This document shows positions 28,000-60,629 of a stretch of 64,000 nt of DNA, piece by piece. The notes below the pieces were generated by a model that was not told the DNA's origin, ran no database searches, and worked only from the letters and a program-made list of their open reading frames with translations. A program made the translations under genes and the position numbers. Within the stretch, counting starts at the first letter, position 1. Every line of letters begins with the position of its first letter. This DNA comes from Aminobacter sp. AP02 (GTDB taxonomy: Bacteria; Pseudomonadota; Alphaproteobacteria; Rhizobiales; Rhizobiaceae): positions 124,001-188,000 of the forward strand of contig NZ_QGGX01000006.1 in NCBI RefSeq assembly GCF_003148805.1. Direction: 5' to 3'.

Positions 28000-28027
28000 G
28001 ATAGCTTGCGTGCCTTGTGTGAGGCTT
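28000..28027 (-). promoter_or_regulatory. shared flagellar 28-bp element, copy upstream of motA
   Basis: Read on the minus strand: AAGCCTCACACAAG, 8 bases, GCTATC. It matches five other copies before flagellar operons in this window. Only 22 bp separate it from the start of the oppositely oriented copy at 28050. Confidence 0.6.
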
Positions 28028-28049
28028 GAAAGTACGCAGCCAAATGATT

Positions 28050-28077
28050 CAGCCTCGCGCAAGCATTTGAGCGTAGC
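28050..28077 (+). promoter_or_regulatory. shared flagellar 28-bp element, copy upstream of the DUF1217-flgF-fliI operon
   Basis: CAGCCTCGCGCAAG, 8 bases, CGTAGC. It starts 64 bp before the ATG at 28114. It is identical in both blocks, and in distance to the start codon, to the copy before flgE. Confidence 0.65.
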
Positions 28078-28113
28078 CTTCCCCGACTATCCTGCGGCGG
28101 AAGGGCTATTGTC

Positions 28114-29235
28114 ATGCTCAATACCTATACAAGCTACCACCTGATCGCGAGGGACATCGGCAAGGCAATCGGCCGTGTCGAGTCTCAGCCCACCGTCGAG
28201 CGCGAGACCGAGTATTATCTAAAGAACATCAAGAACGTGAAGTCGATCGACGAGTTCGTCAAGAACGACCGTCTGTTCAAGTACGCCATGAAGGCACACG
28301 GCCTGCAGGATATGGCCTACGCCAAGGCATTCATGGTCAAGGCGCTGAAGGAAGGCATCACCGACAAGGACAGCTTCGCCAACAAGCTGACCGACAAGCG
28401 CTATGCCGAGTTCGTCAAGAGTTTCAACTTCGCCGAACTCGGCGCGCAGGCAACCACCTACAACAAGGCCCAGCAAGGTGCCGTCGATCAATACCTGATC
28501 AAGGTGGAACTTGCCGGACTCGATCCCAAGTCGGAAGCCGTCCAGAAAGAGGTGAAGTACTACCTCGACAACATCGTCAAGGTGAAGTCCGCCAAGGATC
28601 TCCTGGGCGACGACAGGCTGTACGCCTTCGCCATGAACGCCTTGGGCATCGAAGCTTCGATCCCCAACAAGGACATGATGGAGAAGGTCCTGGCAGGTGG
28701 CGTTCGCGACCCCAAAAGCTACGCCAACCAGATGACGGACAAGCGCTACGCCGCATTCGCCGCTGTCTACAATTTCGAGGCCTATGGCGAAACGGCCACG
28801 ACCACCAACCCCTCCCAACGGCCGTCCGTCGACAAGTTCATGCGCCAGACGCTGGAGGAAAATGCCGGCAAGGACAATGAAGGCGTGCGCCTCGCGCTCT
28901 ATTTCGAACGCAAGGCATCGACTATCACCAGCTTCTACCAGGTGCTCGCCGATCCGGCACTCGCCAAGGTCGTGCGCACGGCGCTTGCCCTGCCCGAATC
29001 CTTCGCTGGCGCCGATATCGACCGCCAGGTCGCTCTGTTTGAAAGCAAGCTCAAGGTCGAGGACTTCTCCGATCCCAAGAAGCTCGGCGAATTCATGAAG
29101 CGCTTCACCAGCCTTTGGGAAATCAACAACCCCAGCTCACCGGTACAGGCCTCCGTCGGCGTGCTTTTCGGCGGGTCGCCCGCCGCTGGAGTGTCGACCG
29201 ACCTGCTGTTTGCCATGCAGAAGCTGAGGTTCTAA
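28114..29235 (+). CDS. DUF1217-family flagellar locus protein (three internal repeats)
   Basis: A 373-residue protein made of three ~110-residue DUF1217-type units. Units one and two each contain a YYL(K/D)NI segment, then DDRL(F/Y) or NDRLF, and end with a (T/M)DKRYA motif followed by FNF or YNF. The third is more divergent. No signal peptide or membrane span is seen. The gene sits between motA and flgF, as a DUF1217-type gene does in related rhizobial clusters, and it leads the rightward flgF-fliI operon. The role is unknown; its place among export and rod genes suggests a secreted or chaperone-like flagellar component. Confidence 0.75.
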   Translation: MLNTYTSYHLIARDIGKAIGRVESQPTVERETEYYLKNIKNVKSIDEFVKNDRLFKYAMKAHGLQDMAYAKAFMVKALKEGITDKDSFANKLTDKRYAEFVKSFNFAELGAQATTYNKAQQGAVDQYLIKVELAGLDPKSEAVQKEVKYYLDNIVKVKSAKDLLGDDRLYAFAMNALGIEASIPNKDMMEKVLAGGVRDPKSYANQMTDKRYAAFAAVYNFEAYGETATTTNPSQRPSVDKFMRQTLEENAGKDNEGVRLALYFERKASTITSFYQVLADPALAKVVRTALALPESFAGADIDRQVALFESKLKVEDFSDPKKLGEFMKRFTSLWEINNPSSPVQASVGVLFGGSPAAGVSTDLLFAMQKLRF

Positions 29236-29242
29236 GGACATC

Positions 29243-29965
29243 ATGCAAAACGGTCTCTACGTCGCCCTCTCGGCCCAGGTTGCGCTTGAAAAGCGCCTCA
29301 ACACCATCGCTGACAACGTCGCCAACGCGTCCACCGTCGGCTTCCGCGCCACAGGCGTGAAGTTCGAGGACGTCGTCTCCGGCCTCGGCCAGAAGTCGGT
29401 GTCCTTCACCTCGCCAGGCGACACCTATCTTTCGACCCAGCATGGCGGCATGCGTGAAACCGGCAATCCGTTCGACTTCGCTATCCGTGGCGGCGCCTGG
29501 TTCGGCATCGACACGCCAGCGGGCGTGGTGATGACCCGCGACGGCCGCTTCTCCATGACCCAGGACGGCCAGCTCGTCTCCGTCGAGGGCCACCCGGTGC
29601 TCGACGCTGGCGGCGCGCCGATACAGCTCGACCCACGTGCCGGCCCCCCGACTGCGGGCGCCGACGGCGCGCTGCGCCAGGGTGATCGTCAGGTTGGCGC
29701 CATCGGCCTCTACGATTTCGACCCCGGCGTGAATTTCGTCCGCTACGGCAATTCGGGCGTCGTGCCGCCGACACCGCCCCAGCCGATCGTCGACCGCATG
29801 GACGCAGGCATCGTCCAGGGCTTTGTCGAGGAGTCCAACGTCAATCCGATCAAGGAAATGACCAAGCTGATCATGGTTCAGCGCGCCTTTGAAAACACAG
29901 CCGCCCTGATACGCCAGAACGAGGCTTCCTTCTCCGACGCCATCAAGACGCTCGGCTCGAAATAA
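29243..29965 (+). CDS. flgF: flagellar proximal rod protein FlgF
   Basis: A 240-residue rod protein exported by the flagellar type III system. The N-terminal signature LNTIADNVANASTVGFR and the C-terminal QGFVEESNVNPIKEMTKL are diagnostic of rod/hook family proteins, and the length fits FlgF rather than FlgG. It ends immediately before the GTG of fliI. Confidence 0.93.
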   Translation: MQNGLYVALSAQVALEKRLNTIADNVANASTVGFRATGVKFEDVVSGLGQKSVSFTSPGDTYLSTQHGGMRETGNPFDFAIRGGAWFGIDTPAGVVMTRDGRFSMTQDGQLVSVEGHPVLDAGGAPIQLDPRAGPPTAGADGALRQGDRQVGAIGLYDFDPGVNFVRYGNSGVVPPTPPQPIVDRMDAGIVQGFVEESNVNPIKEMTKLIMVQRAFENTAALIRQNEASFSDAIKTLGSK

Positions 29966-31366
29966 GTGAGCACGTCCCTGACCGCCATCCGCAACGGGCC
30001 ACAGCCGGTGCACGACAACCGGCTTGAAGCGCTCGAACGCATCCAACACCGTTTTGCCGATGATCGCCTGCTGGTCAGACGTGGCGGACAGGTGAGGGAA
30101 ATCGCTCCGACGCACTACAAGGTCGGCGGACTGTCCGCGAGCGCGCGGCTTGGCGACATCGTCGAGCATCGCGGCCATGGCCGCAACCGTCGGGGCGAGA
30201 TCGTTCAGATCGCCCGAGACGAAGTACTGGTCGCACCTTACGAAAGCAGCGGCGAGGTCGGTGTCGGCGACGCCGTCTTCACCCGTGGCCCCATTTCGAT
30301 CACCCCGCATCCGAGCTGGCGCGGCCGAGCCATTGACGCTCTTGGCCGCCCCATCGACAACGGCGGGCCGCTGATCCGCGATGGCAAGCAGGACGCCGCC
30401 GAAGCCGTGCCGCCCGCGGCACTGGCGCGCCAGCGCGTTGAAACCGGTTTCAATACAGGTGTCCGCGTCATCGACATCTTCACCCCGCTCTGCTTCGGCC
30501 AGCGCATGGGCATCTTCGCCGGCTCCGGGGTCGGCAAATCGACGCTGCTTGCCATGCTTGCCGGGGCCGATGCTTTCGACACGGTCGTCGTCGCCCTGAT
30601 CGGCGAGCGCGGCCGCGAAGTCCGCGAATTCCTCGAAGACACGATCGGCGCCGCTTCCATGGCCAAGACGGTCGCCGTCGTTGCCACTTCCGACGAGAGC
30701 GCGATGATGCGCCGCCGCGCGCCCGACACCGCAATGCGCGTCGCCGAGCATTTCCGCGACCGTGGCGACCGGGTGCTTCTGGTGCTGGATTCGATCACCC
30801 GCTTTGCTCATGCGTTGCGCGAGGTTGCCATCGGCGCCGGCGAACCGCCGGTCGCGCGCGGCTATCCCGCGTCAGTCTTCACCGACCTGCCCAAGCTGCT
30901 CGAACGCGCCGGCCCCGGCATGGAAGGCACCGGCTCGATCACGGCGATCATCTCCGTGCTCATCGACGGCGACGACCACAACGATCCGGTCGCCGATTCC
31001 GTCCGCGGCATCCTGGACGGCCACGTTGTGCTCGACCGCTCGATCGCCGAACAGGGGCGTTATCCGCCGGTCAATCCCCTGGCATCGATCTCGCGTCTGG
31101 CCGGCAAGGCCTGGACCCCCGAGCAGCGCCAGCTTGTCAGCAAGCTCAAGGCACTGATTTCACGCTTCGAGGACACGCGCGACATCCGTCTGCTCGGTGC
31201 CTACCAGCCCGGCGCCGACGCCGATCTCGATCTGGCGGTACGCCAGGTTCCCGTGATCTACGAGGCATTGGGCCAATCACCAGCCGATGGACCGTCGCTC
31301 GACCCGTTCTCCGATCTCGCACGCCATCTGAAAGCCAAGGATAGAGCCAATGTTCAGGCGGAATGA
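29966..31366 (+). CDS. fliI: flagellar export ATPase FliI
   Basis: A 466-residue cytoplasmic ATPase related to the F1 beta subunit that supports export of flagellar substrates. Walker A is GSGVGKST, Walker B lies in RVLLVLDSITR, and the family PPVNPLASISRL stretch is present. Translation starts at GTG 29966, directly after the flgF stop. Its 3' end overlaps the next gene by 17 bp. The regulator FliH is not adjacent; a FliH-like gene lies after fliF. Confidence 0.95.
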   Translation: MSTSLTAIRNGPQPVHDNRLEALERIQHRFADDRLLVRRGGQVREIAPTHYKVGGLSASARLGDIVEHRGHGRNRRGEIVQIARDEVLVAPYESSGEVGVGDAVFTRGPISITPHPSWRGRAIDALGRPIDNGGPLIRDGKQDAAEAVPPAALARQRVETGFNTGVRVIDIFTPLCFGQRMGIFAGSGVGKSTLLAMLAGADAFDTVVVALIGERGREVREFLEDTIGAASMAKTVAVVATSDESAMMRRRAPDTAMRVAEHFRDRGDRVLLVLDSITRFAHALREVAIGAGEPPVARGYPASVFTDLPKLLERAGPGMEGTGSITAIISVLIDGDDHNDPVADSVRGILDGHVVLDRSIAEQGRYPPVNPLASISRLAGKAWTPEQRQLVSKLKALISRFEDTRDIRLLGAYQPGADADLDLAVRQVPVIYEALGQSPADGPSLDPFSDLARHLKAKDRANVQAE

Positions 31367-31979
31367 CCCGGCAAGCGAGTTCCTCGAAATGATCGGGTGC
31401 AAGGACAAGCCGCGCACGCTGCTGCAGCGCCTCGGCTTGAGGCGCGGGCCGCTTACCATCACCCCAACGCGCGAAAAGCGCGATCATCGAAGCGACTTTG
31501 TCATCGCAGGGCTGGGCATTGCGCTCGGGCTCACCTGCGCGCTGTTTCCCTGGTACATCTTCTTCAACCAGGACAAGTTCGGCATCCGGGCGATGAAATT
31601 TTCCGGCGGCGGCCAAAACGAACAGCCGATTCCGCTGGCACTGGGCCAGCAGGTCGAACGGGTCGGCGCCCCAATGTCGGTCGAAGACATTCCGCCGATG
31701 AAGCTCGACCTGTTCGCCACCGGCTCGCTTCGCTCCGACAAGGACGATGCTGTTGGGGTTCCCGGCATAGCCGAACAGCCCTTCCCCGGACCTAAGATCG
31801 AATTCAAGCTCGTTCACATCGCCAATGGTCGGGCGATGGTCGAAGATGACGCCGGTGTCTGGGTTGTCCAGCGCGGCTCCGTTCTGCCCGACTCTAGCCG
31901 TGTCGCCTCGATCGAACAGCGCGACGGCAAATGGGTGCTCGTCACCTCCCGCGAAGAGGTCTTCCAGGTCTCGCGTTGA
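31350..31979 (+). CDS. single-span membrane protein of the flagellar cluster, function unknown
   Basis: A 209-residue protein with an N-terminal basic cytoplasmic part (~48 residues), one membrane span at about residues 49-70 (AGLGIALGLTCALFPWYIFF) and a periplasmic part ending in a compact beta-rich domain of ~55 residues (from IEFKLVH). That last domain is reminiscent of small periplasmic domains of pilus or secretion accessory proteins, but I do not recognise a named family. The 17-bp overlap with fliI implies cotranslation. A role in export or basal-body assembly is likely but unproven. Confidence 0.65.
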   Translation: MFRRNDPASEFLEMIGCKDKPRTLLQRLGLRRGPLTITPTREKRDHRSDFVIAGLGIALGLTCALFPWYIFFNQDKFGIRAMKFSGGGQNEQPIPLALGQQVERVGAPMSVEDIPPMKLDLFATGSLRSDKDDAVGVPGIAEQPFPGPKIEFKLVHIANGRAMVEDDAGVWVVQRGSVLPDSSRVASIEQRDGKWVLVTSREEVFQVSR

Positions 31980-31983
31980 GCGG

Positions 31984-32024
31984 TTCCGGCTTCCGGCTTC
32001 CGGCTTCCGGCTTCCGGCTTCCGG
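31984..32024 (+). repeat. tandem heptamer repeat TTCCGGC, five perfect copies plus a partial sixth
   Basis: Five consecutive TTCCGGC units are followed by TTCCGG, directly after the stop of the preceding gene and ~85 bp before flgB. Such simple repeats can vary in copy number by slippage. It overlaps no gene. Confidence 0.9.
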
Positions 32025-32054
32025 GAATGGAACAGGCGCCCAGGGCCGCCGCGC

Positions 32055-32082
32055 AAGGCCCGCGCAAGACTGAGGCAATAGT
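32055..32082 (+). promoter_or_regulatory. shared flagellar 28-bp element, copy upstream of flgB
   Basis: AAGGCCCGCGCAAG, 8 bases, AATAGT, starting 54 bp before the flgB ATG. It keeps the CGCGCAAG core and the TAG at the same spacing as the other copies. Confidence 0.55.
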
Positions 32083-32108
32083 GTTTGGAAATCTGCTCGG
32101 AGATTTCC

Positions 32109-32489
32109 ATGGACCCCGTCAACCTGTTCGATCTGGCCGCCCAGCAGGCACGCTGGCTCTCGGTGCGTCAGAACACCATCGCCGGTAACGTCGCCAACGC
32201 CAACACGCCTGGCTATCGCACCAACGAGATAGAGCCGTTCGAGCGCGTGCTTGATCGTTCACGTGTTGCCATGGCATCGACCCAGACGGGCCACCTCACC
32301 GGCGGTGCCACCGAGGCCGGCTACGCTGTCAAGCCTGAACAGCCCAGGCACGCGGTCCTGCCCTCCGACAACACTGTCGCCGTCGAAGACGAGTTGATGA
32401 AGGCCGGCGAAGTTCGCCGCTCCTTCGAGCTCAATACCGCCATCGTCAAAGCCTTCCACCGCATGATCATGCTCAGCACGAAGGCCTGA
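32109..32489 (+). CDS. flgB: flagellar proximal rod protein FlgB
   Basis: A ~126-residue rod protein. The N-terminal motif [16 protein letters not shown] and the C-terminal helix typical of rod proteins are present. ATG 32109 is chosen over 32085 because GGAG lies 7 nt upstream and the protein then begins with the usual [10 protein letters not shown]. It opens the run flgB-flgC-fliE-flgG. Confidence 0.93.
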
Positions 32490-32494
32490 CAGGA

Positions 32495-32914
32495 ATGGAT
32501 CCGCTCGTCTCAGCCCTCAAGGTCGCGGGCTCCGGTCTCGGAGCCCAGTCCGAACGCCTTCGCATCGTTTCGGAAAACCTTGCCAACGCCCAGTCGACCG
32601 GCAACACGCCCGGCGCCGACCCCTATCGCCGCAAGACAGTCAGCTTCGCCGCCGAACTCGACCGCGCGACCGGCGGATCGACGGTTGAGATCGCCTCGAT
32701 CGGTCACGACCAGTCCGCGTTTCCGCTGGAATTCCAGCCCGGCAACGAGGCAGCCGACGCCAACGGCTACGTCAAGATGCCCAACGTCAATGTCATCATC
32801 GAAATGGCCGACATGACCGAAGCCAACCGTTCCTACGAAGCCAACCTGCAAGTCATCAAGCAGGCGCGCGACCTAATTTCCATGACCATTGACCTTATGA
32901 GGAGCCAGTCATGA
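32495..32914 (+). CDS. flgC: flagellar proximal rod protein FlgC
   Basis: A 139-residue rod protein. [23 protein letters not shown] is the FlgC signature region, and the C-terminus ([14 protein letters not shown]) fits the family. Its stop overlaps the fliE start by 4 bp. Confidence 0.94.
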
Positions 32915-33222
32915 TCGGCAGCATCAGCCCAATCGGCACGCAGCTACTGAGCAAGCCGACAAGCGTCGCGCCCGAGGCCGGCGCAGCTGCGTCCGGTACA
33001 GTCGCCCAGTCCTTCGCCGCGGCCCTTTCGGACGCCGCCGCGCAGGCCCATGCCACGTTGCGTCAGGCAGAGCAGCTTTCGCTCGATGGCCTCCAAGGCA
33101 AAGCCGACACCCGCCAGGTTGTCGACGCGGTGATGAGCGCCGAGCAGGCGCTGCAGGCGGCTGTCGCGATCCGCGACAAGATCGTCACAGCCTATCTCGA
33201 AGTCAGCCGCATGGGCATCTGA
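32911..33222 (+). CDS. fliE: flagellar hook-basal body protein FliE
   Basis: A 103-residue adaptor joining the MS ring to the rod. An Ala-rich helical body is followed by the conserved [21 protein letters not shown] helix and a final YLEVSRMGI. It is coupled to flgC by ATGA and followed by flgG. Confidence 0.93.
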
Positions 33223-33233
33223 GGAACATCCCG

Positions 33234-34022
33234 ATGAAAGCGCTTGCCATCGCCGCGACGGGTATGAACGCCCAGCAAACCAATCTCGAGGTGATCGCGA
33301 ACAACATCGCGAACATCAACACCACCGGCTACAAGCGCGCCCGCGCCGAATTTTCCGACCTGCTCTACCAGGTCGACCGTTTGCAGGGCGTGCCCAACCG
33401 CGCCAATTCGGCGATCGTGCCGGAAGGCGTCGCCATCGGCCTCGGCGTCAAGACGGCGGCAGTCCGCAACGTCCACATCCAGGGCGGCCTCACCAGTACA
33501 AGCAACGAATTCGACCTCGCGCTATCGGGTAAAGGCTGGTTCCAGGTCGAGGGTGCCGACGGCCAGACGCTTTATACCCGCGCCGGCTCGTTCAACAAGA
33601 ACGCCACCGGCCAGCTGGTCACGGTTGACGGCTTCAACGTCATCCCGGCAATCACCGTGCCGCAGGATGCGGTCGAGGTCATCGTCAACAATTCCGGCCA
33701 GGTCTTTGCCCGGATCGACGGCCAGGCGGCTCTCCAGCCGCTTGGCGACCTGACGCTCGCCAATTTCGCCAATGAGGCAGGTCTGATGCCGCTCGGCGAC
33801 AACCTCTTCCAGGAAACCGAAGCCTCCGGTGCCGCCAATGTCGGCGTACCAGGCGATCCGGGCTACGCCACGATCAAGCAGGGCTATCTGGAAAATTCCA
33901 ACGTCGATCCGGTCAAGGAAATCACCGAGCTGATTTCGGCCCAGCGCGCTTACGAGATGAATTCCAAGGTCATCCAGGCTGCCGACGAGATGGCCGCCGT
34001 CGTTTCCAAGAATATCCGGTGA
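33234..34022 (+). CDS. flgG: flagellar distal rod protein FlgG
   Basis: A 262-residue distal rod protein. It shows [15 protein letters not shown] at the N-terminus and [19 protein letters not shown] near the C-terminus, the standard FlgG ends. Length is normal. Its stop overlaps the GTG start of flgA. Confidence 0.96.
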
Positions 34023-34501
34023 AGATCATGCGGCGACGGAACGCCCTCCTCCATATCCGCGCGGCGGCACTCGCGTTCGCCATGCTTGGCAGCGCAGCGA
34101 TGGCTGCCGAGCAGGAGGTCGTGCTCGTTCCCAACCGCGTCATCTATCCGGGCGAGACAATTGCCTTGTCCTCGCTCAAGGAAGTCACCCTCAAGCCGGG
34201 CAGGGTTCGTCCCGACGCGGTTGCGACGCTTGCCGATGAACTCGACGGCCGGATTGCAAAGCGTACGCTACTGCCTGGCCGCTACATCCCCGTCAACGCG
34301 CTGCGCGAGGCCTGGCTGGTCGACCGCGGCGCTTCCGTGCAGGTCGTCTTTGCGACTGGCGCGCTATTGATCTCCGCTGCCGCGGTCACGCTTGAACCGG
34401 GCTCGGCAGGCGACGTCGTAAAGGTGCGCAACATAGACAGCGGCAAAGTTCTCTCAGGCACGATCATGGCCGACGGCTCGATCCGTGTGGGTGCAATATG
34501 A
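34019..34501 (+). CDS. flgA: flagellar P-ring assembly chaperone FlgA
   Basis: A 160-residue periplasmic chaperone for P-ring formation. A signal peptide ends near AAMAAEQ; the SAF-like domain follows with [10 protein letters not shown] and the late [12 protein letters not shown]. Translation probably starts at GTG 34019, overlapping the flgG stop (GTGA), or at ATG 34028. It is coupled to flgI by ATGA. Confidence 0.9.
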
Positions 34502-35724: not shown

Positions 35725-35727
35725 GCC

Positions 35728-37028: not shown

Positions 37029-37036
37029 GTCCGGTC

Positions 37037-38271: not shown

Positions 38272-38277
38272 AGCACC

Positions 38278-38299
38278 GCGAGTCCTCGTGAGGGCTCGC
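38278..38299 (+). terminator. hairpin after fliP, probable operon-end structure
   Basis: Bases 38278-38286 pair with 38291-38299 (9-bp stem with one G-T pair, 4-nt loop) seven bases after the fliP stop. There is no strong T-run, so termination may be partial. Confidence 0.5.
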
Positions 38300-38404
38300 A
38301 AGAAACTGCCATTTTCGAACCAAATGCATCTAACCGCAGCCCAAAGGCGCGCTGCGGTTGCATTGCATGGGCTCGTGCACGCAAAATCACAACATATCAA
38401 CAGC

Positions 38405-38419
38405 TTAATGCGGCATTAA
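38405..38419. promoter_or_regulatory. TTAA-N7-TTAA, candidate CtrA site upstream of first flagellin
   Basis: TTAA, seven bases, TTAA; the whole 15 bp is a perfect palindrome (TTAATGC-G-GCATTAA). This is the classical alphaproteobacterial CtrA consensus. The second TTAA lies 39 bp before the conserved flagellin leader, the same offset as the TTAAC upstream of the second flagellin. Confidence 0.55.
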
Positions 38420-38454
38420 CTGTACCGCTTACGCCTTTGGTAGGAACTCTCCGC

Positions 38455-38574
38455 CAGATTGCCCGGCATGGCGGGTGACCTTCCCTGAAGCGCTCATTGG
38501 CATGATGCCTCTCCGCCATACCGGCCGATCCGGTATGTCCCTGTACCATCCGCATTTTTAGGGGCGTTTTTCCC
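38455..38574 (+). promoter_or_regulatory. conserved 120-nt leader of the first flagellin gene with strong hairpin
   Basis: This 120-base stretch before the ATG is almost the same as 39686-39805 before the second flagellin. It contains a perfect 8-bp hairpin (CATACCGG 38517-38524, loop CCGAT, CCGGTATG 38530-38537) and smaller ones at 38462-38475 and in GGCATGATGCC. AGGGG precedes the start codon. A translational control role, for example through FlbT, is inference. Confidence 0.6.
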
Positions 38575-40967: not shown

Positions 40968-41007
40968 TTAATCCACCGTTAACCATGAACCGCTAGTTAT
41001 GGTTAAC
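40968..41007. promoter_or_regulatory. double CtrA-like site upstream of third flagellin, with 9-bp inverted repeat
   Basis: TTAA (40968-40971), seven bases, TTAACCAT (40979-40986), then 12 bases, then ATGGTTAA (40999-41006), which is TTAACCAT on the other strand. GTTAACCAT and ATGGTTAAC form a perfect inverted repeat. It lies about 110-150 bp upstream of the ATG. Confidence 0.6.
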
Positions 41008-42159: not shown

Positions 42160-42195
42160 ATGGGCCGCGCATCGCGCGGCCCATAACATTTTCGC
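42160..42195 (+). terminator. terminator-like hairpin after third flagellin
   Basis: A perfect 11-bp stem (42160-42170 with 42174-42184, loop ATC) is followed by AACATTTTC. The shared flagellar element of fliF begins just beyond it. Confidence 0.75.
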
Positions 42196-42214
42196 ACAAG
42201 CTTCGAGGTTTAGG
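42187..42214 (+). promoter_or_regulatory. shared flagellar 28-bp element, copy upstream of fliF
   Basis: CATTTTCGCACAAG, 8 bases, TTTAGG, starting 62 bp before the fliF GTG. It is the least conserved copy but keeps CGCACAAG and the TAG at fixed spacing. Confidence 0.5.
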
Positions 42215-42248
42215 GTCTGCCGGATAGTTTTGCGGGGAACCTACGCAC

Positions 42249-49081: not shown

Positions 49082-49096
49082 TTACCGATTGGTTAA
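49082..49096 (+). promoter_or_regulatory. near-consensus CtrA site upstream of rem
   Basis: TTAC, seven bases, TTAA, one base off the TTAA-N7-TTAA consensus, ending 34 bp before the rem ATG in an otherwise gene-free 213-bp gap. Confidence 0.4.
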
Positions 49097-49130: not shown

Positions 49131-49799
49131 ATGATTGTTGTTGTCGACGAGCGCGAGCTCGTCACCAAAGGATATAATTCACTTTTTGACCGGGAAGGTG
49201 TGGCTTGCGCGGGCTTCCGCTCGGGCGAGTTCGGCGAATGGGTCACCAGCGCTCCCGAAGAGGATCTGCGCTCGGTTCGCGCCTTTCTCATCGGCGATTG
49301 CAACGAGGATTTGATTTCTCCTCGTCAGCTGCGCGATCGCACCAAGGCTCCTGTCATCGCGCTCAGCGAACAGAACAATCTCGAGAACACCCTCAAGCTT
49401 TTCGAGTCGGGCGTCGATGACGTCATCCGCAAGCCTGTCCATATCCGGGAGATCCTGGCACGCATCTCGGCAATCCGCCGCCGGGCCCAGGAAGACACCG
49501 GCTTCACCGAGATCGGCGCGATGCGCATCTTCATGGATGGCCGCGACCCCGAAATCCATGGCGAGCCGATGCCGTTGCCGCGCCGCGAACGCCGAATCCT
49601 GGAATATTTGGCAAGCAACAGCGGCCGCCGAGTCACGAAGACACAGGTCTTCAACGCGATCTACGGTGTGTTCGACGAAGAAGTCGAAGAAAATGTCGTA
49701 GAAAGCCACATCTCCAAGCTGCGCAAGAAGCTGCGCGAGCGTCTGGGACACGACCCGATCGATTCCAAACGTTTCCTCGGCTACCGGCTGGTCGTCTGA
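49131..49799 (+). CDS. rem: OmpR-type flagellar response regulator Rem
   Basis: A 222-residue orphan regulator. The receiver has the acidic pair in VVVDERE, a candidate phosphoacceptor aspartate at residue 56 (FLIGD), a serine in ALSE and a lysine in RKPVH. The C-terminal winged helix has [16 protein letters not shown] and [15 protein letters not shown]. In Sinorhizobium Rem is activated by VisNR and turns on downstream flagellar genes. ATG 49131 was chosen from the family's typical opening MIVVVDERE; the frame extends upstream without similarity. No kinase gene is nearby. Confidence 0.92.
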
Positions 49800-49800: not shown

Positions 49801-49828
49801 CAGCCTCGCGCAAGTCATGCCGCGTAGC
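49801..49828 (+). promoter_or_regulatory. shared flagellar 28-bp element, copy upstream of flgE
   Basis: CAGCCTCGCGCAAG, 8 bases, CGTAGC, starting 64 bp before the flgE ATG and directly after the rem stop. Both blocks and the distance equal those of the copy at 28050. Confidence 0.65.
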
Positions 49829-49864
49829 TTCATTATCGTGGCATGAGATTTGAGGAGACCATCG

Positions 49865-51121: not shown

Positions 51122-51154
51122 GACTGACGGGCCTCAGTCCGCGAAAGATTCAGC

Positions 51155-52609: not shown

Positions 52610-52613
52610 CACG

Positions 52614-53657: not shown

Positions 53658-53682
53658 TCTGACGGCAACCAACGGGACGCAT

Positions 53683-54030
53683 ATGTATCAATTTTCCTAT
53701 GCCGATATCCAGGACGACTCGATTGCCGACGCCAAGGATCGCGAACGCCAGCTTCTCAGCCGTTCGATCGATCTTTTGACCAGGGCAAGCGAAGTCGGCC
53801 CCAATTCCCGGGAAGCCATCGACGCGCTGATGTTCACCAACCGTGTGTGGACATCGCTGCTGGACGACCTCGGCAGCCCCGAGAACGCGCTTCCCAAGGA
53901 GCTGCGCGCAAATCTCATCTCCATCGGCCTGTGGCTGCTGCGCGAGTGCGAAGACATCCGCCAGGGCCGCACCGACAACTTCGAAGGCCTGATCGAGGTC
54001 TCGCAGATCATCCGTGACGGCATACAATGA
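53683..54030 (+). CDS. flaF: flagellin biosynthesis regulator FlaF
   Basis: A 115-residue soluble helical protein; SRSIDLLTRA, TNRVWTSLLDDL and LISIGLWLLRE are typical of FlaF. In Caulobacter and rhizobia FlaF is needed for flagellin production and works with FlbT. It overlaps flbT by 4 bp. Confidence 0.9.
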   Translation: MYQFSYADIQDDSIADAKDRERQLLSRSIDLLTRASEVGPNSREAIDALMFTNRVWTSLLDDLGSPENALPKELRANLISIGLWLLRECEDIRQGRTDNFEGLIEVSQIIRDGIQ

Positions 54031-54467
54031 AAAACACGCTGAAGATCTCGCTGAAGGCCAACGAGAAGATCTACATCAACGGCGCCGTCGTCCGCATCGA
54101 CCGCAAGGCCTCGCTTGAACTGCTCAACGACGCGCAGTTCCTGCTCGAAAGCCATGTCCTGCAGCCGGACCAGGCGTCGACTCCTCTGCGCCAGCTCTAC
54201 TTCATCCTGCAGGTCATGCTGGTCGACCCCCAGGGGGCCGTCGAGGCACGCGACATGTTCCGCCGCTCGCTGCCGCTGCTGCTCGCCACCTTCGACAACG
54301 CCGAGATTCTTTCGAGCCTGAAGCACATCGACCGCCTCGTCGCCGAGGACCATGTCTACGAGGCGTTGAAGACGCTCCGCTCGCTCTATCCACTCGAACA
54401 GCGCATCATGACTGGCAACGATCAGCAGCCAATCGTACGCGCCATCGCCGCTGGAGGTTCTTTCTGA
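54027..54467 (+). CDS. flbT: flagellin mRNA regulator FlbT
   Basis: A 146-residue protein (ISLKANEKIYINGAVVRIDR at the start). In Caulobacter FlbT binds the 5' leader of flagellin mRNA and destabilises it; in other alphaproteobacteria it can act positively. The two structured 120-nt flagellin leaders in this window are natural targets. It is coupled to flaF and abuts flgD (TGATG). Confidence 0.92.
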   Translation: MKNTLKISLKANEKIYINGAVVRIDRKASLELLNDAQFLLESHVLQPDQASTPLRQLYFILQVMLVDPQGAVEARDMFRRSLPLLLATFDNAEILSSLKHIDRLVAEDHVYEALKTLRSLYPLEQRIMTGNDQQPIVRAIAAGGSF

Positions 54468-54880
54468 TGCCCGTCGATTTCACCACTACTCCCCCTGTCG
54501 GCGCCAACACCGGTACCAAGTCGGCCGGCGCCAAGGCCTCGGTCGATTACCAGTCCTTCCTCAAGCTGCTCATGGCGCAGATGAAGAACCAGGACCCGAC
54601 CAAACCGATGGACTCGACCGAATACGTCGCGCAGCTCGCCACCTTCTCGCAGGTCGAGCAGTCGGTGCAGATGAACTCGCGGCTCGACCAGATCCTGCAG
54701 TCGTCCGCGCTCGCCCAGGCCGACGCGCTGATCGGGCGCACGGTCACCTCAGCCGACGGCAAGACATCAGGCCAGGTCGCCGAAGTGCGTCTCGCCAAGG
54801 ATGGCGTCATTGCCGTGCTCACCGACGGCAAGCAGATCACCATGGCTCCCGGCGTCACCGTCAAGGCGACGGCCGCGTGA
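54467..54880 (+). CDS. flgD: flagellar hook cap protein FlgD (short form)
   Basis: A 137-residue hook-cap scaffold with FLKLLMAQMKNQDPTKPMDS, the family hallmark, and a small C-terminal beta part. Enteric FlgD is ~230 residues, so the Ig-like and tudor-like domains are missing, as is usual in rhizobia. It overlaps fliQ by 4 bp. Confidence 0.92.
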   Translation: MPVDFTTTPPVGANTGTKSAGAKASVDYQSFLKLLMAQMKNQDPTKPMDSTEYVAQLATFSQVEQSVQMNSRLDQILQSSALAQADALIGRTVTSADGKTSGQVAEVRLAKDGVIAVLTDGKQITMAPGVTVKATAA

Positions 54881-55143
54881 ACGAAGCCGATGCCCTCGAC
54901 CTGGTCCAGTACGCCATCTGGACCGTGCTCACCGCCTCCGCGCCAGCGGTCGCGGCAGCCATGCTGGTCGGCGTCGGCATCGCGCTCATCCAGGCGCTGA
55001 CCCAGATCCAGGAAATCACGCTCACCTTCGTGCCCAAGATCGTCGCCATCTTCCTGGTGGTAGCGCTCACTGGCCCGTTCATAGGTGCCCAAATTTCAAG
55101 CTTCACCAACGTCATCTTCGAGCGCATCGAAAACGGCTTCTGA
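54877..55143 (+). CDS. fliQ: flagellar type III export protein FliQ
   Basis: An 88-residue export-gate protein with two membrane spans (about residues 15-38 and 50-72) and the conserved QALTQIQEITLTFVPKI stretch. Translation starts at GTG 54877, overlapping the flgD stop. In S. meliloti the next genes are flhA and fliR; here they lie 5.5 kb further on. Confidence 0.94.
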   Translation: MNEADALDLVQYAIWTVLTASAPAVAAAMLVGVGIALIQALTQIQEITLTFVPKIVAIFLVVALTGPFIGAQISSFTNVIFERIENGF

Positions 55144-55321
55144 CAAAAGGCGGTCGTTGCGGGCCGGCCTCCCCTGGATTCCCGCTGTGGACCTCAGCAG
55201 CGACGCTGCTGGCCCATGCCTGCTCCATACAAATGGGTTCACCGCGCCCGCCGATCATGGTCTAGTCGTCTAACAACGATTCATTCACACGAGGGGCACC
55301 CGGCCCGGCCGGCATCAGCGC

Positions 55322-56965
55322 ATGGACGATGACCACCAGTACGAGCAGGGTTCGGCACTTGCCCCGTTCAAGCACGGCATTTTCCGCTCGGTCTGGTTCG
55401 CCAGCCTGGCGTCGAATTTCGGCAGCCTGATCCAGTCGGTCGGTGCCGCCTGGCTGATGACCTCGATCGCCACGTCATCGGACATGGTGGCACTCGTCCA
55501 GGCCTCGATTTCGTTGCCGATCATGCTGTTTTCGCTGGCATCGGGCGCCCTTGCCGACAGCTACGACCGCCGCCGTGTCATGTTGACTGCGCAATGCTTC
55601 ATGCTTGCCGTCTCCGCATTGCTGACGTTGGCCGCCTATCTCGGCGTGATCACGCCGTGGCTCTTGCTCGCCTTCACTTTCCTCATCGGCTGCGGCACCG
55701 CCCTCAACAACCCGTCCTGGCAGGCGTCGGTGGGCGACATGGTGCCCCGCCCCGTCATGCCGGCGGCGGTCGCGCTCAATTCGATGGGCTTCAACATGAC
55801 GCGCAGCGTCGGTCCGGCCATCGGCGGCATCATCGTCGCCACCGCCGGTGCAGCCGCCGCCTTCGCCGTCAACACGCTCAGCTACTTCGCGATCATCTTC
55901 GTGCTGTTCCGCTGGCGCCCGCAGTATCCGGCCAACCCGCTGCCGCGCGAAACGCTCGGTCAGGCCATGGGTGCGGGCCTGCGCTACGTCGCCATGTCGC
56001 CCAATATCGGCAAGGTGCTTCTCCGCAGCTTTGCCTTCGGCTTTACCGCCGTCGTCATCCAGGCGCTCTTGCCGCTCGTCGCCCGCGACCTCGTTGCAGG
56101 CGGGCCCCTGACCTACGGTATCATGCTCGGCGCCTTCGGTATCGGCGCCGTCGGCGGCGCGCTGATTTCCGGCCGCATCCGCCGCGGCATGTCGAGCGAA
56201 ACCATCGTGCGTTCGGCCTTCCTCGGCTTTGCGCTATGCAGCTGGATTGCCGCGTGGAGCTCCAATGCCTGGCTGACCAGCGGAGGCCTGCTCATCGGCG
56301 GCGCCTGCTGGGTGCTGGCACTTTCACATTTCAACATCACCGTACAGATGTCGACGCCGCGTTGGGTCGTCGGCCGCGCGCTGTCGATCTACCAGATGTC
56401 GACCTTCGGCGGCATGGCACTGGGCAGCTGGGTCTGGGGTCTCGTCGCCGAAAGCAACGGCGCGGCCACCGCGCTGATCGTCGCCGGCATCGTCATGCTG
56501 GCAGGAGCGGCGATCGGCTTCCTGCTGCCGCTGCCCGAGCATACGGCCCTCAATCTCGATCCGCTCAACCGTTTCCGCGAGCCGCATCTGGCCCTCGACG
56601 TCCGGCCGCGCTCGGGCCCCATCGTCATCACGATCGAATTCATCATCCGCGAGGAAGACGTCAGCGCCTTCCTCGATGCCATGACTGAAAGGCGCCGCGT
56701 GCGACGCCGCGACGGCGCCCGCAACTGGACGCTGTCGCGCGATCTGGAGAACCCCGAGATCTGGGTGGAGAGCTACCACACGCCGACCTGGCTCGAATAC
56801 ATCCGCCACAACCAGCGCGCCACCCACGCCGACGCCGTCATCGGCGACAAGCTGCGCGCGCTGCACAGCGGTGCTCAGCCGCCACGCGTCCACCGCCTGA
56901 TCGAGCGCCCGACCAGCCTCGCCGCGGCACTCGGCACGCACAAGGGCCACATCGAGCTGCATTAA
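55322..56965 (+). CDS. MFS transporter with C-terminal barrel-like extension (MFS_3 type)
   Basis: A 547-residue protein. About twelve membrane spans lie in the first ~415 residues, with the MFS loop motif in GALADSYDRRRVM. The last ~130 residues are soluble and resemble the ferredoxin-like dimeric alpha/beta barrel fold (ITIEFIIREEDVSAFLDAM), an arrangement known in the MFS_3/enterobactin-exporter group. The substrate is unknown. It is the first of the genes that separate fliQ from flhA. Confidence 0.8.
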   Translation: MDDDHQYEQGSALAPFKHGIFRSVWFASLASNFGSLIQSVGAAWLMTSIATSSDMVALVQASISLPIMLFSLASGALADSYDRRRVMLTAQCFMLAVSALLTLAAYLGVITPWLLLAFTFLIGCGTALNNPSWQASVGDMVPRPVMPAAVALNSMGFNMTRSVGPAIGGIIVATAGAAAAFAVNTLSYFAIIFVLFRWRPQYPANPLPRETLGQAMGAGLRYVAMSPNIGKVLLRSFAFGFTAVVIQALLPLVARDLVAGGPLTYGIMLGAFGIGAVGGALISGRIRRGMSSETIVRSAFLGFALCSWIAAWSSNAWLTSGGLLIGGACWVLALSHFNITVQMSTPRWVVGRALSIYQMSTFGGMALGSWVWGLVAESNGAATALIVAGIVMLAGAAIGFLLPLPEHTALNLDPLNRFREPHLALDVRPRSGPIVITIEFIIREEDVSAFLDAMTERRRVRRRDGARNWTLSRDLENPEIWVESYHTPTWLEYIRHNQRATHADAVIGDKLRALHSGAQPPRVHRLIERPTSLAAALGTHKGHIELH

Positions 56966-57213
56966 AGCATGGGTCGTCAGATCCAGTTCGGACAGGACCA
57001 GCTTTAACGGCGCTCACGAGCTCGGAACTACGGCCGCTGGCGAGGTCGGTATTTGCTCGACCTTCGATAGATCATATTAGCAAATTGTAATATTAAATCG
57101 ACGCGCGCACCATCCGGCGCATTGGTCAGCAGGACCGGAGCCGTTGGTTTGGATCGATGCTTTCCACGATGCGCGTTCGGGCGACGAACGCATTCTCAGG
57201 ATTGGAGCCCATC

Positions 57214-57513
57214 ATGGATGTCGTTGTCAGAACTTACACAGGCAAGGGCTCGAAAGAGCTCTTTTCGCTGCTGGAAAAACACAAGGCAGAAGTCGAAAAG
57301 CTCATGCGCGCCGTCAAGGGGTTTGAAAGCTATACGCTTGCCCGTAGCAGTGATGGCGAAGGTGGGCTGTCGATGACGGTCTGCCACGACAAGGCTGGCA
57401 CCGAAGAGAGTGTCAAGCTCGCCAGGGAGTGGATCTCGAAAAATGCGGCAGGCATCAATGTGGATGCCCCCAAAGTCTCCATGGGATCCATCATCATTCA
57501 CGCCACAAAGTAG
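57214..57513 (+). CDS. small dimeric alpha/beta barrel-like protein, function unknown
   Basis: A 99-residue soluble protein. The pattern strand, long amphipathic helix (LFSLLEKHKAEVEKLM), FESYTLARS strand, VCHDKAGTEES turn and a second helix (AREWISKN) fits the small antibiotic-monooxygenase/dimeric barrel fold. ATG 57214 has GGAG 6 nt upstream; an earlier ATG at 57157 lacks one. No catalytic residues can be assigned. Confidence 0.6.
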   Translation: MDVVVRTYTGKGSKELFSLLEKHKAEVEKLMRAVKGFESYTLARSSDGEGGLSMTVCHDKAGTEESVKLAREWISKNAAGINVDAPKVSMGSIIIHATK

Positions 57514-57530
57514 CAGTTTTCAATGAATTG

Positions 57531-57557
57531 GCCCGGTCGGGCGTCCGCCGGCCGGGC
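57531..57557. terminator. hairpin between convergent genes, probable bidirectional terminator
   Basis: Bases 57531-57540 pair with 57548-57557 (10 bp with one G-T pair, 7-nt loop), flanked by AATT-rich sequence, in the 53-bp gap between two convergent genes. Confidence 0.6.
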
Positions 57558-57566
57558 TGAATTGGA

Positions 57567-58193
57567 TTAAACGATCAGCACTATGCCAGTGATTGTAAGG
57601 GCCGCGATCCAGATGAGATCGAAATTGATCCATCCACGGCGAAGGAATGAAAGGCCTGCCCATTCATAGACGCAAACAGTGACAACCAGGATCACTGCAA
57701 GCATGGCCCCCATATGCACGCCGATCGCCGACAGCGCGATGGGCAGCGATCCAGCAGCTGTCAAATCGCTAGCCGGGCTGCCCGAAAGGCACAGCGGGAT
57801 GAGCACCGGCACGAGCATCAGGCCGGCCCCGTGGGCGGTCGCCATCAGGAACGACCAGACGCCAAGCCCCATCATCCCGGTTTTCATGCCGATCCTGACC
57901 CTATGGTTGTGACCGGATGTGGCATGGAAGATGGCCCAGCCGATGAGCACCATGCCGGCAGCTGTTTCCAACGAACGCTGGTCAGCGACCAGGCCAAGCG
58001 TCAACACAGCCATCGCAACGACACCGATCGAAACCATATGCCCGAGCGCGATGGGGATTAGAGCTAGCAGCGCTGTGCGTCGGCTTTCGCGGTGCAACCC
58101 GAGCGCAACAGCAAACAGCCACCCCATGGCGGGGTTGAGGCCGTGAAACGCTCCAAGGCCAGCAAGCACCAGCCAAGGCGAGATGGAAATCAT
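57567..58193 (-). CDS. multi-span membrane protein, NicO/UreH-like
   Basis: A 208-residue protein with about six membrane spans. The first loop holds FHGLNPAMGW and the next span HMVSIG; later HATSGHNHRVR and TAHGAG supply further histidines. Intramembrane histidines in this layout are seen in nickel/cobalt and related transporters. It lies downstream of the methanethiol oxidase gene, same strand, 121 bp away. A metal supply role for that copper enzyme is only a suggestion. Confidence 0.5.
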   Translation of the reverse strand: MISISPWLVLAGLGAFHGLNPAMGWLFAVALGLHRESRRTALLALIPIALGHMVSIGVVAMAVLTLGLVADQRSLETAAGMVLIGWAIFHATSGHNHRVRIGMKTGMMGLGVWSFLMATAHGAGLMLVPVLIPLCLSGSPASDLTAAGSLPIALSAIGVHMGAMLAVILVVTVCVYEWAGLSFLRRGWINFDLIWIAALTITGIVLIV

Positions 58194-58314
58194 GCTACGC
58201 CAATACAGCGGCTGGCCGAAAATCCGATCCGATCCTCGGAATGCACGATGCCTGGATTCAGAGACTCATAGCGTCCTTCACGGCGCTCTCGTCGCTGCGA
58301 GGCGGGCGAGCTCA

Positions 58315-59709
58315 TCACGGATAGCAGTAGGAATCGGACGAGCAATCACCTCCCTCCAAGCGCACCTGATGCGGCCGATGCCCTTTTGGCCAGTCGACGA
58401 AAAAATCCTCGTCGAACTTTATCCCGCCATTCTCTCCAACGTCGAGCTTCACCATCCACCCGTCGATGCCATCGGAATAGAACTGCGGGTCGATGGCGCC
58501 GTAGAGCGAGTTGGTGAAGTAGACCCGCTTTCCATCCCGGCTGATTTCGACCATTTGCGGGCCGCCGTTGAGCGCGCCATTGTTCGCCTTTGGATGGCTT
58601 GCCCGCGACACGATCCCGCCTATGCGGACCCTGCCGGCCTCTTTCGGGTTGAACGGATCCGACACGTCGTACTGGATCATGTCTCCGGTGCCCCAGCAGG
58701 ACACATAGAGGAAGCGGTCATCCATCGACAGGTCGATGTCGGTGACGAGTGGGGCAACCGCATTGAAGCCCTTGAGAACGGGTGGCAGCAGGTCCGGATC
58801 CGCTGGTTCCGCGGGGATCTCGATCACCTTTTTCACCGCCCATTTGTCGCCGTCGCGGTACCAGGTCCAGATCGAAGCCGAAAGATCCTTGAGACTGATG
58901 ACACAGCCGACAAAGCCATAAGCCTTGGTCGGGTCATGCGCCGGGCGCAATTCGAACACGAGCTGGTGTTCTTCGCCGAAGTCGATCTCCTGCAGATGCT
59001 TGCGCTTGTGCAGGTCCCAGAAGTGCAGCCTGCGCCCATATTTGCTGCCCAGCAGTATCTCTGGAACGAGCCCGTTTTCGAATGTATCGGGGGTTCCCCA
59101 TTCGCTCGTCACCATGGTGTCGTGACCGAGATGCCACCAGAAGTCATAGGCAAGCTGCTGCGGTCCCCGGTCCATCTCCCACTGGCCGAGAACGTCGAAA
59201 CTCCCGGAATCCAGCAGGAATATGCCGCCTGGCGCCTTGCCCTCGGCGTTTCCAAGCGCGTTCACATAAATTCCTTCCGGACCGCAATGGATGGTGTGCA
59301 GGCGCGAATAGCCAGCCTTCTCAGCGATCTCTTCCGGCTCTATGACCCTCACGATCTCAGGGTTTCTGGGATCCGGCTTGGTGTCGATGATGTGCAGCCG
59401 CGACGACCGCAAGCCGGGCACCACAAGATAGCGCCGTTCCATGTGGGGATGTGGCGCATTGGGACAAAGGCAAGACGAGCAGGCATTCCAGCCGAAATGG
59501 TGCAGCTCGTCGCCGGCATTCGGCATGTCGACCTTGCCGACGATCTGGGAATAGGACGGGGATTTGGGGTCTACGTCGACGACAGCTATCGCGTCAGGTT
59601 TCCTCCGGTCCGGGTCGAAGGCGGCGACATAGGCCAGCGTCTCTTTCGGCGCCTTCGCGGCCATTCTTGGCGAGGGATAGAATGAAGGATCAGGTTGCCA
59701 GGTTGCCAT
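58315..59709 (-). CDS. mtoX: methanethiol oxidase / selenium-binding protein (SBP56 family)
   Basis: A 464-residue SBP56-family protein. Bacterial members with this domain are copper-dependent methanethiol oxidases that convert methanethiol to formaldehyde, H2S and H2O2. Histidines expected for metal binding are visible in DELHHFGWNACSS, LHTIHCG, WWHLGHD and GHRPHQVRLEGGDC; the C-terminus ends with a cysteine pair. No signal peptide is seen, unlike some periplasmic MTOs. ATG 59709 has GAGAGGG upstream. The SCO1-like and MauG-like genes often next to mtoX are absent here. Whether this copy oxidises methanethiol is not shown. Confidence 0.8.
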   Translation of the reverse strand: MATWQPDPSFYPSPRMAAKAPKETLAYVAAFDPDRRKPDAIAVVDVDPKSPSYSQIVGKVDMPNAGDELHHFGWNACSSCLCPNAPHPHMERRYLVVPGLRSSRLHIIDTKPDPRNPEIVRVIEPEEIAEKAGYSRLHTIHCGPEGIYVNALGNAEGKAPGGIFLLDSGSFDVLGQWEMDRGPQQLAYDFWWHLGHDTMVTSEWGTPDTFENGLVPEILLGSKYGRRLHFWDLHKRKHLQEIDFGEEHQLVFELRPAHDPTKAYGFVGCVISLKDLSASIWTWYRDGDKWAVKKVIEIPAEPADPDLLPPVLKGFNAVAPLVTDIDLSMDDRFLYVSCWGTGDMIQYDVSDPFNPKEAGRVRIGGIVSRASHPKANNGALNGGPQMVEISRDGKRVYFTNSLYGAIDPQFYSDGIDGWMVKLDVGENGGIKFDEDFFVDWPKGHRPHQVRLEGGDCSSDSYCYP

Positions 59710-60389
59710 GATGAAACCCTCTCTTGATCATTTCTGATTTTTGCGCGTTGCCCCCGGAATTGGTCCTGCGAGCGACTTTCGCACCACAGGGACGAAGTGT
59801 CCAATCAAGTCGGCTGATGCTAGGAACCTGAGCGGAAGGTCAGCACCGGTTGCCGCTTGCTGGTCCGAGAAAAACCGGCCGTCGTGATTGCTGGATGTTG
59901 GAGCTGTCATAGGATCGCAATGGCAGTCGACAAGACGCATGTTGCTCCGCGCATCTTGCTAATGGCTCCGCATTTCCACTGCCTTGTCAGGAAGTCTGTC
60001 AGCAATCACCGTGGATAGACGGCCCCCGTTTTTCCACGCCCTCCAGACGTGCCGTATCATTGACCTCGCGATCTTCCACGGGACTCCGGTGCGCACCGGG
60101 CAGCGGGGGGAAGCGCCGGTGCCGGGCTGGCAGGAGGTCGGATCTCCTGCTGGGTGATGAGCCCCCAAGCCCGGGCCTTGCGGCGGCTGGCGGCGCGAAA
60201 GCGTTGAGGCGACTGAGCGGGGCAAGAACACCGAGTGGGACGCGAGGTTCGCGCCACAAATCTACTATCGGAAGGCACGGCCTCGCGCCCCGCTTCCCGA
60301 ACCACCTCCTGAAAGGGAGTGCTCTTTGACAATAGCCAGGCGCGAAGGCGAGCGTGGCGGGGATGAAGCTTGGCGCCAGCGCTGACGCC
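59710..60389. other. gene-poor intergenic DNA between methanethiol oxidase gene and repeat element
   Basis: No supported gene. A 61-residue open frame on the minus strand (59728-59910) directly upstream of the oxidase lacks a ribosome site. From ~60057 to 60330 the sequence is very GC-rich and all frames look like low-quality translations; it resembles dispersed repeat DNA but has no recognisable ends. Confidence 0.5.
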
Positions 60390-60552
60390 GTCATCCCGGG
60401 CGAGCGCAGCGAGAGCCGCGACCCATTGGCTCGAACATCGTCAAGCACAGCCGGGTCGTCGCCTGGGGAGCACTTCATGACCGGATCTGAAATTAGAACC
60501 CGGCCGTGCGGGTCAATAGGTCCCGGGTCTCGCTGCGCTCGCCCGGGATGAC
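60390..60552. repeat. 163-bp element bounded by perfect 25-bp inverted repeats (dispersed intergenic repeat/MITE-like)
   Basis: Bases 60390-60414 (GTCATCCCGGGCGAGCGCAG...) are the exact reverse complement of 60528-60552. The 113 bp inside have no gene. The ends match the kind of palindromic intergenic repeat that is common in GC-rich Rhizobiales genomes. It sits about 50 bp upstream of the flhA promoter element. Confidence 0.75.
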
Positions 60553-60601
60553 AACGCCAGCCGCCCTGGTGCTCTCTCACAAGGGAGCCGCTCCTCCCTC
60601 C

Positions 60602-60629
60602 CACCCTCGCGCAAGCTTGGCGCAATAGG
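60602..60629 (+). promoter_or_regulatory. shared flagellar 28-bp element, copy upstream of flhA
   Basis: CACCCTCGCGCAAG, 8 bases, AATAGG, starting 78 bp before the chosen flhA ATG. Its presence shows that flhA-fliR has its own promoter after separation from fliQ. Confidence 0.6.

Follow-up and report, generated by a model that had tools for sequence, protein, structure and literature searches.

In plant symbionts and bacteria related to them, flagellar assembly is regarded as being under the master switches Rem, FtcR and LafR, whose class II regulon has been described in Sinorhizobium meliloti, Brucella and Bradyrhizobium. Rem is reported to activate class II genes in S. meliloti, and rem mutants were reported to be nonmotile (PMC8429497, PMC9812332). 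We analysed a 64,000-nt stretch of Aminobacter sp. AP02 (RefSeq assembly GCF_003148805.1, contig NZ_QGGX01000006.1, positions 124,001 to 188,000; hereafter the window) in which six flagellar operons are preceded by a shared promoter-like element, made of a conserved box followed by a -10-like sequence. The locus resembles those of the described regulon in that the same regulator gene lies beside the same operons, and the boxes precede the kinds of operon that are assigned to Rem. In the accessible parts of the open-access literature searched, no published binding site of this form was found for Rem, FtcR or LafR. As judged from the comparisons given below, it is through this box that Rem most likely activates the operons for flagellum assembly in many rhizobia and related bacteria.

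A sequence-only reading of the window had listed six 28-bp sites as copies of one element, and their coordinates and strands agreed with the sequence in every case (Table 1). The copies at 28050 and 49801 are, as it had stated, the same in both blocks and different in their 8-bp spacers, and each begins 64 bp ahead of an ATG (28114 and 49865). The shared element is real, with a true length of 30 bp rather than 28, because base 30 is the last base of a TANNNT -10 (T in five of the six sites). The first block was corrected to a tandem repeat; all six members were retained, and two weaker ones that had been overlooked were added to them (Table 1). In the window, the strict pattern CRCRCAAG-N10-TAK had six matches, whereas 100 dinucleotide shuffles averaged 0.05 and never exceeded 1; with one mismatch allowed, the excess was small (10 matches versus 5.39 expected). 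As this pattern was derived from the same six sites, weight was placed on other tests. Over the 5.6-Mb genome it matched 16 times, ten of them outside the flagellar cluster, and its reversed form matched 27 times, so that the short pattern is not specific genome-wide and what is specific is its clustering before flagellar operons. A longer pattern gave 54 matches (40 reversed) with up to three mismatches and 11 matches, seven of them within the flagellar cluster, with up to two. These genome-wide counts come from patterns, the matrices described below being applied to selected stretches only.

The element was also recovered outside the family of the window. When a matrix built from the six sites was applied to 41 stretches of other families, 57 distinct places scored above 16 compared with 4 in reversed DNA, and in S. 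meliloti the same matrix gave eight matches compared with none reversed. Conversely, a matrix made from ten sites of other families ranked the six sites of the window first, with scores of 20.3-28.2 and the next match in the window at 10.8; only the non-core columns of this matrix are independent, because its sites were found with the core pattern. One comparison row, which used loci pre-chosen for pattern likeness, was not counted as a control. A chance origin of the six sites was rejected on the basis of the shuffles and of this ranking.

To describe the anatomy of the element we used a main matrix, iterated over 32 stretches of 30 genomes and seeded with 22 of 30 strict matches, eight having been dropped by eye (four near-duplicates, and four of other families that looked unrelated). 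It picked 389 hits on positions 1-18 only, which were reduced to 259 non-redundant sites; this core scan omits the -10, yet its matrix derives from seeds selected with TAK at that position. The consensus of the 259 sites is approximately cgC[CA]AGCYTCGCRCAAGCYTS-N6-TANNNT and contains no -35. Of the sites, 52.5% had TANNNT at offset 25, and no more than 1.2% had it at any of 25 other offsets; for YANNNT the values were 65.6% and at most 4.2%. A sigma-70 -10 keeps T-12, A-11 and T-7, and by these bases the second block is a predicted sigma-70-type -10 at a fixed offset. The half-site consensus of the first block, approximately CRCAAGCYTS, is present in two copies with an 11-bp period, the self-similarity of the columns reaching a cosine of 0.56 at a shift of 11 (0.14 at the runner-up shift; p 0.004 by permutation across all shifts). 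The spacer from the repeat to the -10 measures 5-7 bp depending on where the half-site is cut, and is fixed in length and free in sequence. Mean conservation in 78 flgE promoters of named relatives was 1.67 bits for the box, 0.37 for the spacer, 1.97 for the three -10 bases and 0.20 for the upstream flank. In the flhA copy the repeat occupies the position where a -35 would normally stand and extends into the spacer. The tandem half-sites have the 11-bp spacing of OmpR/PhoB-family boxes; the inverted reading is weaker (cosine 0.47 at centre 9.5), and the maximum for inversion, 0.67, is that of the AAGCTT palindrome itself. Overall, the element is predicted to be a composite promoter, in which a tandem repeat is followed by a rigidly placed -10-like TANNNT.

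We then asked which genes carry the box in the 30 genomes, a match above 16 within 260 nt upstream being counted and the stretches being partial. This survey is biased toward flagellar genes, because the training sites of the main matrix lay no more than 260 nt from genes homologous to those of the window; the position of a gene at the head of an operon or inside it was not used in training. The box was present upstream of the operon heads motA (15/15), flgE (20/21), flgB (16/17), fliF (13/21), flhA (11/17) and DUF1217 (1/3). Inner genes had none, whether fliG (0/14), flhB (0/15), fliI (0/20), flgC (0/18), flgG (0/18), motB (0/16) or flgK (0/19), apart from lone matches at fliN (1/15), flgF (1/19), flaF (1/17) and motE (1/6). 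Flagellin genes were partly boxed (flaA 4/9, flaB 7/16, flaC 4/4), and no box was found upstream of rem (0/30). Among 80 loci of named relatives, 237 matches were found compared with 3 in reversed DNA, 26 of them without an assigned gene; flgE was boxed in 78 of 78 loci, fliF in 70 of 70 and flhA in 38 of 39, and the flagellin genes, each matched in 69 loci, had 13 (flaA), 1 (flaB) and 7 (flaC) sites.

The S. meliloti stretch, taken from CP090106, gave ten matches above 16, including those before fliF, motA, DUF1217, flgB, flgE and flhA, the last being absent from the gene table of the record and placed by position between fliQ and fliR. The unit formed by a hypothetical gene and motB has its box about 290 nt ahead of the annotated start. 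The fliF and motB operons, which form one unit in the window, are two in S. meliloti, each there with its own box. Further boxes precede the rod-binding gene (18.7) and the homologue of the 144-aa gene (18.1), the latter in the same place as the weak box at 23580 in the window, and one match lies inside motC (16.9). In this stretch, which does not reach the head of the che operon, neither rem nor visN nor any of the four flagellin genes was preceded by a match above 16. This distribution fits class II-type operons, and not class I or flagellin genes. Transcription start-site tables have been published for this species (PMC3616915). The CP090106 record also shows ISRm16, an IS4-type element, separating flgB from the fliI operon, and the 3.7-Mb sequence CP090106.1 that bears the flagellar cluster is labelled pSymB, so that its label or assembly looks wrong.

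The box follows Rem across genomes. Rem orthologues, taken at an E value of 2.3e-45 or better and set off by a gap from the next matches, paralogues no stronger than 2e-24, were found in 32 of the 150 genomes examined from the order. A long pattern with one mismatch allowed had 96 sites in 25 of these 32 genomes, and among the 118 genomes lacking rem it had 16 sites, spread over 14 (3.0 versus 0.14 sites per genome), the reversed pattern giving 2 and 4 sites, respectively. The 78 rem-less genomes with a fliF over the cut-off had ten sites in nine genomes; three genomes with fliF matches under the cut-off were dropped from this count. Among 289 genomes of the class, Rem was found in that of the window only and in none of the 285 outside the order, which had 29 scattered sites in 28 genomes (about 0.1 per genome; nine with the reversed pattern). 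FliF proteins fell into two score classes, a low-scoring one (E about 1e-53 to 1e-69) and another at 2e-78 and lower. The low-scoring class was present in 27 of the 28 rem-bearing genomes with a fliF over the cut-off and in no genome lacking rem. Four rem-bearing genomes carry both classes, and in these, 16 of 18 pattern hits lay in the Rem-linked cluster, whereas no match above 14 was found in the 80 kb (20 kb each) around the fliF that is not linked to Rem, compared with several in the Rem-linked clusters; with the six-site matrix, four matches above 10 (two reversed) and none above 12 were found around the fliF not linked to Rem. This restriction agrees with the report that LafR controls the lateral and not the polar flagellum of Bradyrhizobium (PMC8429497). 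In two genomes (G085 and G045), a further and more divergent copy of Rem (46% and 42% identity, respectively) is encoded away from the first, and a Microvirga sp. VF16 plasmid (L189) encodes a Rem-like regulator at 19959-20627, within 20 kb of which no flagellar genes are annotated.

The sequence-only reading had offered Rem as one possible reader of the element, and the tracking of orthologues, the absence of the box at the fliF not linked to Rem and the 11-bp OmpR-type repeat argue for it. From this evidence we consider it very probable that the box is an activator site of sigma-70 flagellar promoters for Rem (FtcR/LafR). Several results weigh against this assignment. Co-occurrence cannot separate Rem from other genes inherited in the same flagellar cluster, and the rem-less genomes exceed the reversed control (16 versus 4 and 29 versus 9 sites), which indicates a background of unrelated matches. 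Seven of the 32 rem-bearing genomes had no one-mismatch site, five of the 30 surveyed genomes had no match above 16 ahead of any recognised gene in the stretches examined, and one rem-bearing genome (G116) showed only the other FliF class, although it may be a fifth two-FliF genome with a split assembly. The motif published for Brucella FtcR from chromatin immunoprecipitation sequencing, TGTGGGCA, is unlike the box (PMC9456535); it had one match in the window compared with 1.85 expected, inside motA near its start, and was not enriched before operons. FtcR is also reported to bind its own promoter, an autoregulation without counterpart here because the box does not precede rem. Depletion of CtrA lowers class II genes in S. 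meliloti with rem unchanged (PMC4433202), so that another input exists. The inverted reading keeps some support, because AAGCTT is its own reverse complement. Finally, the geometry is not that of PhoP: in its first architecture the PhoP box lies 12 nt before the -10, and a directly oriented box gave little expression at 7 nt, 23 and 33 nt being functional (PMC3335776), whereas in our element 7 nt separate the end of the second half-site, AAGCTT, from the -10.

The difference from the FtcR motif would also suit a reading in which another regulator of the same flagellar lineage binds the box and Rem merely travels along. The box marks a whole flagellar type, given the distinct FliF class of nearly all rem-bearing genomes, and every gene of that cluster therefore co-occurs with it. 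We nevertheless find such a regulator improbable: Rem and the VisNR-like pair were the sole DNA-binding regulators among the window proteins scanned, several small ones being without a family, VisR was not strong outside the family of the window, the tandem-repeat form suits an OmpR-type protein, and Rem/LafR is the reported activator of such operons (PMC8429497, PMC9812332). VisNR had also been named as a candidate in the sequence-only reading, and binding of the box by this LuxR-type pair as an inverted repeat would be in keeping with the partial dyad symmetry described above and with the visNR-like pair encoded in the window. VisR was searched for, and VisN was not; strong VisR matches (E about 1e-27 or better) were confined to five of the 32 rem-bearing genomes, all in the family of the window, and 20 of the 25 box-bearing ones lie outside that family, where weak matches, mainly to the C-terminal part, were seen in five genomes (E 2e-21 to 5e-11). 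Bradyrhizobium and Azorhizobium are stated to lack visNR and to keep rem (PMC8429497). VisNR thus seems not to be needed; it was rejected as a general reader within the scope of the VisR search, and is the least credible of the candidates weighed.

A dedicated alternative sigma factor recognising both blocks would explain two blocks at rigid spacing and the lack of a -35, and we regard it as very unlikely. A length of about 17-20 bp is long for one sigma domain, and the first block has this length with an 11-bp repeat inside it, while the second keeps exactly the T, A and last T of a sigma-70 -10; the sigma signature suggested in the sequence-only reading is borne out in part, by this sigma-70-type -10. 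No FliA scored over the TIGR02479 cut-off in the 32 rem-bearing genomes, all of which had weaker sigma-factor matches. A sigma-28 pattern of the E. coli type had 42 matches in the window with up to three mismatches compared with 18.9 expected, none of them at the six sites, and sigma-28 promoters were rejected. Sigma-54 promoters were rejected as well, a sigma-54 pattern giving 251 matches in the window compared with 273 expected; among the matches listed, which do not cover the flhA site, one overlaps the flgB site on the opposite strand and another has just one base in common with the motA site.

The features of the window are collected in Table 1. Genes were named from Pfam and NCBIfam, except flgG, flgA, flgI, fliQ and fliR, which were assigned by position against the annotated S. 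meliloti cluster. The cluster consists of motA with fliM, fliN, fliG and flhB on the minus strand, DUF1217-flgF-fliI, flgB to fliP, three flagellins, fliF-(215 aa)-motB-motC-fliK, rem, flgE to fliQ, and flhA-fliR; a comparison of Rem sequences places Aminobacter and Mesorhizobium as the nearest relatives. From the -10 to the start codon that follows, the distance is 26-54 nt, and the best matrix score in the 400 bp upstream of rem was -7.6. The flgJ-like gene behind one weaker box begins just beyond the end of the window (L220:1509-2057; Pfam Rod-binding), and the sequence of the other could reflect the coding constraint of flhB.

Table 1. Boxes, -10 sequences and candidate regulators in the window (scores of the main matrix and of the ten-site other-family matrix; distance from the -10 to the start codon).
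Feature	Position	Strand	Main matrix	Other-family matrix	Start codon and distance	Remarks
Box + -10 TATCTG, motA-fliM-fliN-fliG-flhB operon	27998..28027	-	20.7	23.2	ATG 27977, 26 nt	exact pattern
Box + -10 TAGCCT, DUF1217-flgF-fliI operon	28050..28079	+	27.1	20.3	ATG 28114, 40 nt	
Box + -10 TAGTGT, flgB...fliP operon	32055..32084	+	25.1	20.3	ATG 32109, 30 nt	
Box + -10 TAGGGT, fliF-(215 aa)-motB-motC-fliK operon	42187..42216	+	29.2	26.8	GTG 42249, 38 nt	
Box + -10 TAGCTT, flgE...fliQ operon	49801..49830	+	27.9	20.9	ATG 49865, 40 nt	
Box + -10 TAGGGT, flhA-fliR	60602..60631	+	30.6	28.2	ATG 60680, 54 nt	top score of the window
Tandem repeat of the flhA copy	60599..60619	+				half-sites 60599-60608 (weak) and 60610-60619 (CGCAAGCTTG)
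-10 TAGGGT (TANNNT) of the flhA copy	60626..60631	+				
Weaker box upstream of flgJ-like rod-binding gene	63942..63971	+	19.7			-10 with CA, not TA
Weak box in the flhB 3' end, ahead of 144-aa gene (23067-23501, -)	23580..23609	-	19.5			
rem, OmpR-family response regulator, likely box reader	49131..49799	+				Pfam Trans_reg_C + Response_reg
visN-visR-like LuxR-type pair, alternative reader considered	21584..23037	+				GerE domains

Some arrangements around the boxes are specific to the locus. The boxes of the divergent motA and DUF1217 units stand back to back, 22 bp apart (27998-28079), and this gap differs in S. meliloti and Phyllobacterium. A perfect 7-bp tandem repeat (TTCCGGC, 5.9 copies, 31984-32024) lies 30 bp 5' of the flgB box, and a change in its length could shift the spacing upstream of that box. 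About 5.4 kb of other genes (55144-60601), among them those for an MFS transporter and, on the minus strand, a selenium-binding protein SBP56, separate fliQ from flhA, which are only a few hundred bases apart in S. meliloti and Phyllobacterium; flhA has kept its box despite this separation.

CtrA was rejected as a reader of the box, the matches to TTAA-N7-TTAA in the window not lying at the boxes. Four such CtrA-like sites, two exact and two with one mismatch, were found in the window compared with 1.26 expected, before visN (21302-21316), two flagellins (38405-38419 and 40968-40982) and rem (49082-49096). A CtrA-like site within 250 bp upstream of rem was present in 14 of the 80 named loci (five exact) compared with 3.06 (0.1 exact) in shuffled DNA, these loci being related rather than independent and the distances variable. 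In S. meliloti, CtrA was not found to bind rem, and flgBCDH and fliEFIL depend on CtrA only indirectly; the authors proposed a different secondary regulator because rem was neither bound by CtrA nor altered upon its depletion (PMC4433202). The box gives a handle on whether this CtrA route acts through the activity of Rem at these promoters or elsewhere. More generally, with a box of such quality, the class II regulon becomes readable from sequence.

We propose that every element would serve its flagellar operon as a core promoter, at which Rem acts jointly with RNA polymerase carrying the housekeeping sigma-70. Two Rem DNA-binding domains would lie adjacent on the repeat, covering the -35 position and the half of the spacer next to it, and bound Rem would hold the polymerase, through sigma region 4 and perhaps other subunits, making a poor -10 usable. 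The order of events would run from VisNR, where present, to rem, and from Rem on its boxes to the operons for hook, basal body, export and motor; the flagellin genes in the family of the window would mostly stay outside the Rem-box step.

The tandem repeat with about 11 bp from centre to centre is shared with the boxes of the OmpR/PhoB family (pho, PmrA, ArcA and PhoP). ArcA binds tandem repeats about 11 bp apart (PMC3798270), PmrA half-sites are separated by 5 bp in one of its boxes and by 4 bp in a second (PMC3973317), and the pho box is a repeat of the same family with about 11 bp (PMC4971064), the E. coli pho box standing in for the -35. Rem differs from the regulators of these boxes in being described as active without phosphorylation, its key aspartates being missing (PMC9812332). 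The nearest geometric match that we found is the afs box of AfsR, one of the SARP activators of Streptomyces, which have an OmpR-like DNA-binding domain as Rem does. The afs box consists of two 11-bp direct repeats centred at -29.5, the 3' repeat lying 8 bp from the -10, in promoters with poor -35 and -10 sequences at which sigma region 4 rests on the activator (PMC10936776). With TANNNT placed at -12 to -7, our box would extend from about -39 to -18, with its centre at about -28.5. SARPs differ in their added BTA domain and in being actinomycete proteins, and the likeness to Rem is claimed for the domain type only. That Rem uses a SARP-like arrangement is the boldest part of our proposal, and we infer it by analogy. 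We advance tentatively, as a possibility less probable than not, that a receiver-degenerate Rem performs a SARP-like sigma adaptation, sitting closer to the -10 than the first-architecture PhoP box by roughly half a turn of the helix, and that the rigid combination of box and -10 may be an ancient mark of one of the order's two flagellar lineages, which has survived the rearrangement of operons and sets two flagellar systems apart where one genome has both. In this respect, the resemblance in geometry to SARP promoters suggests a mechanism by which Rem may act on flagellar promoters.

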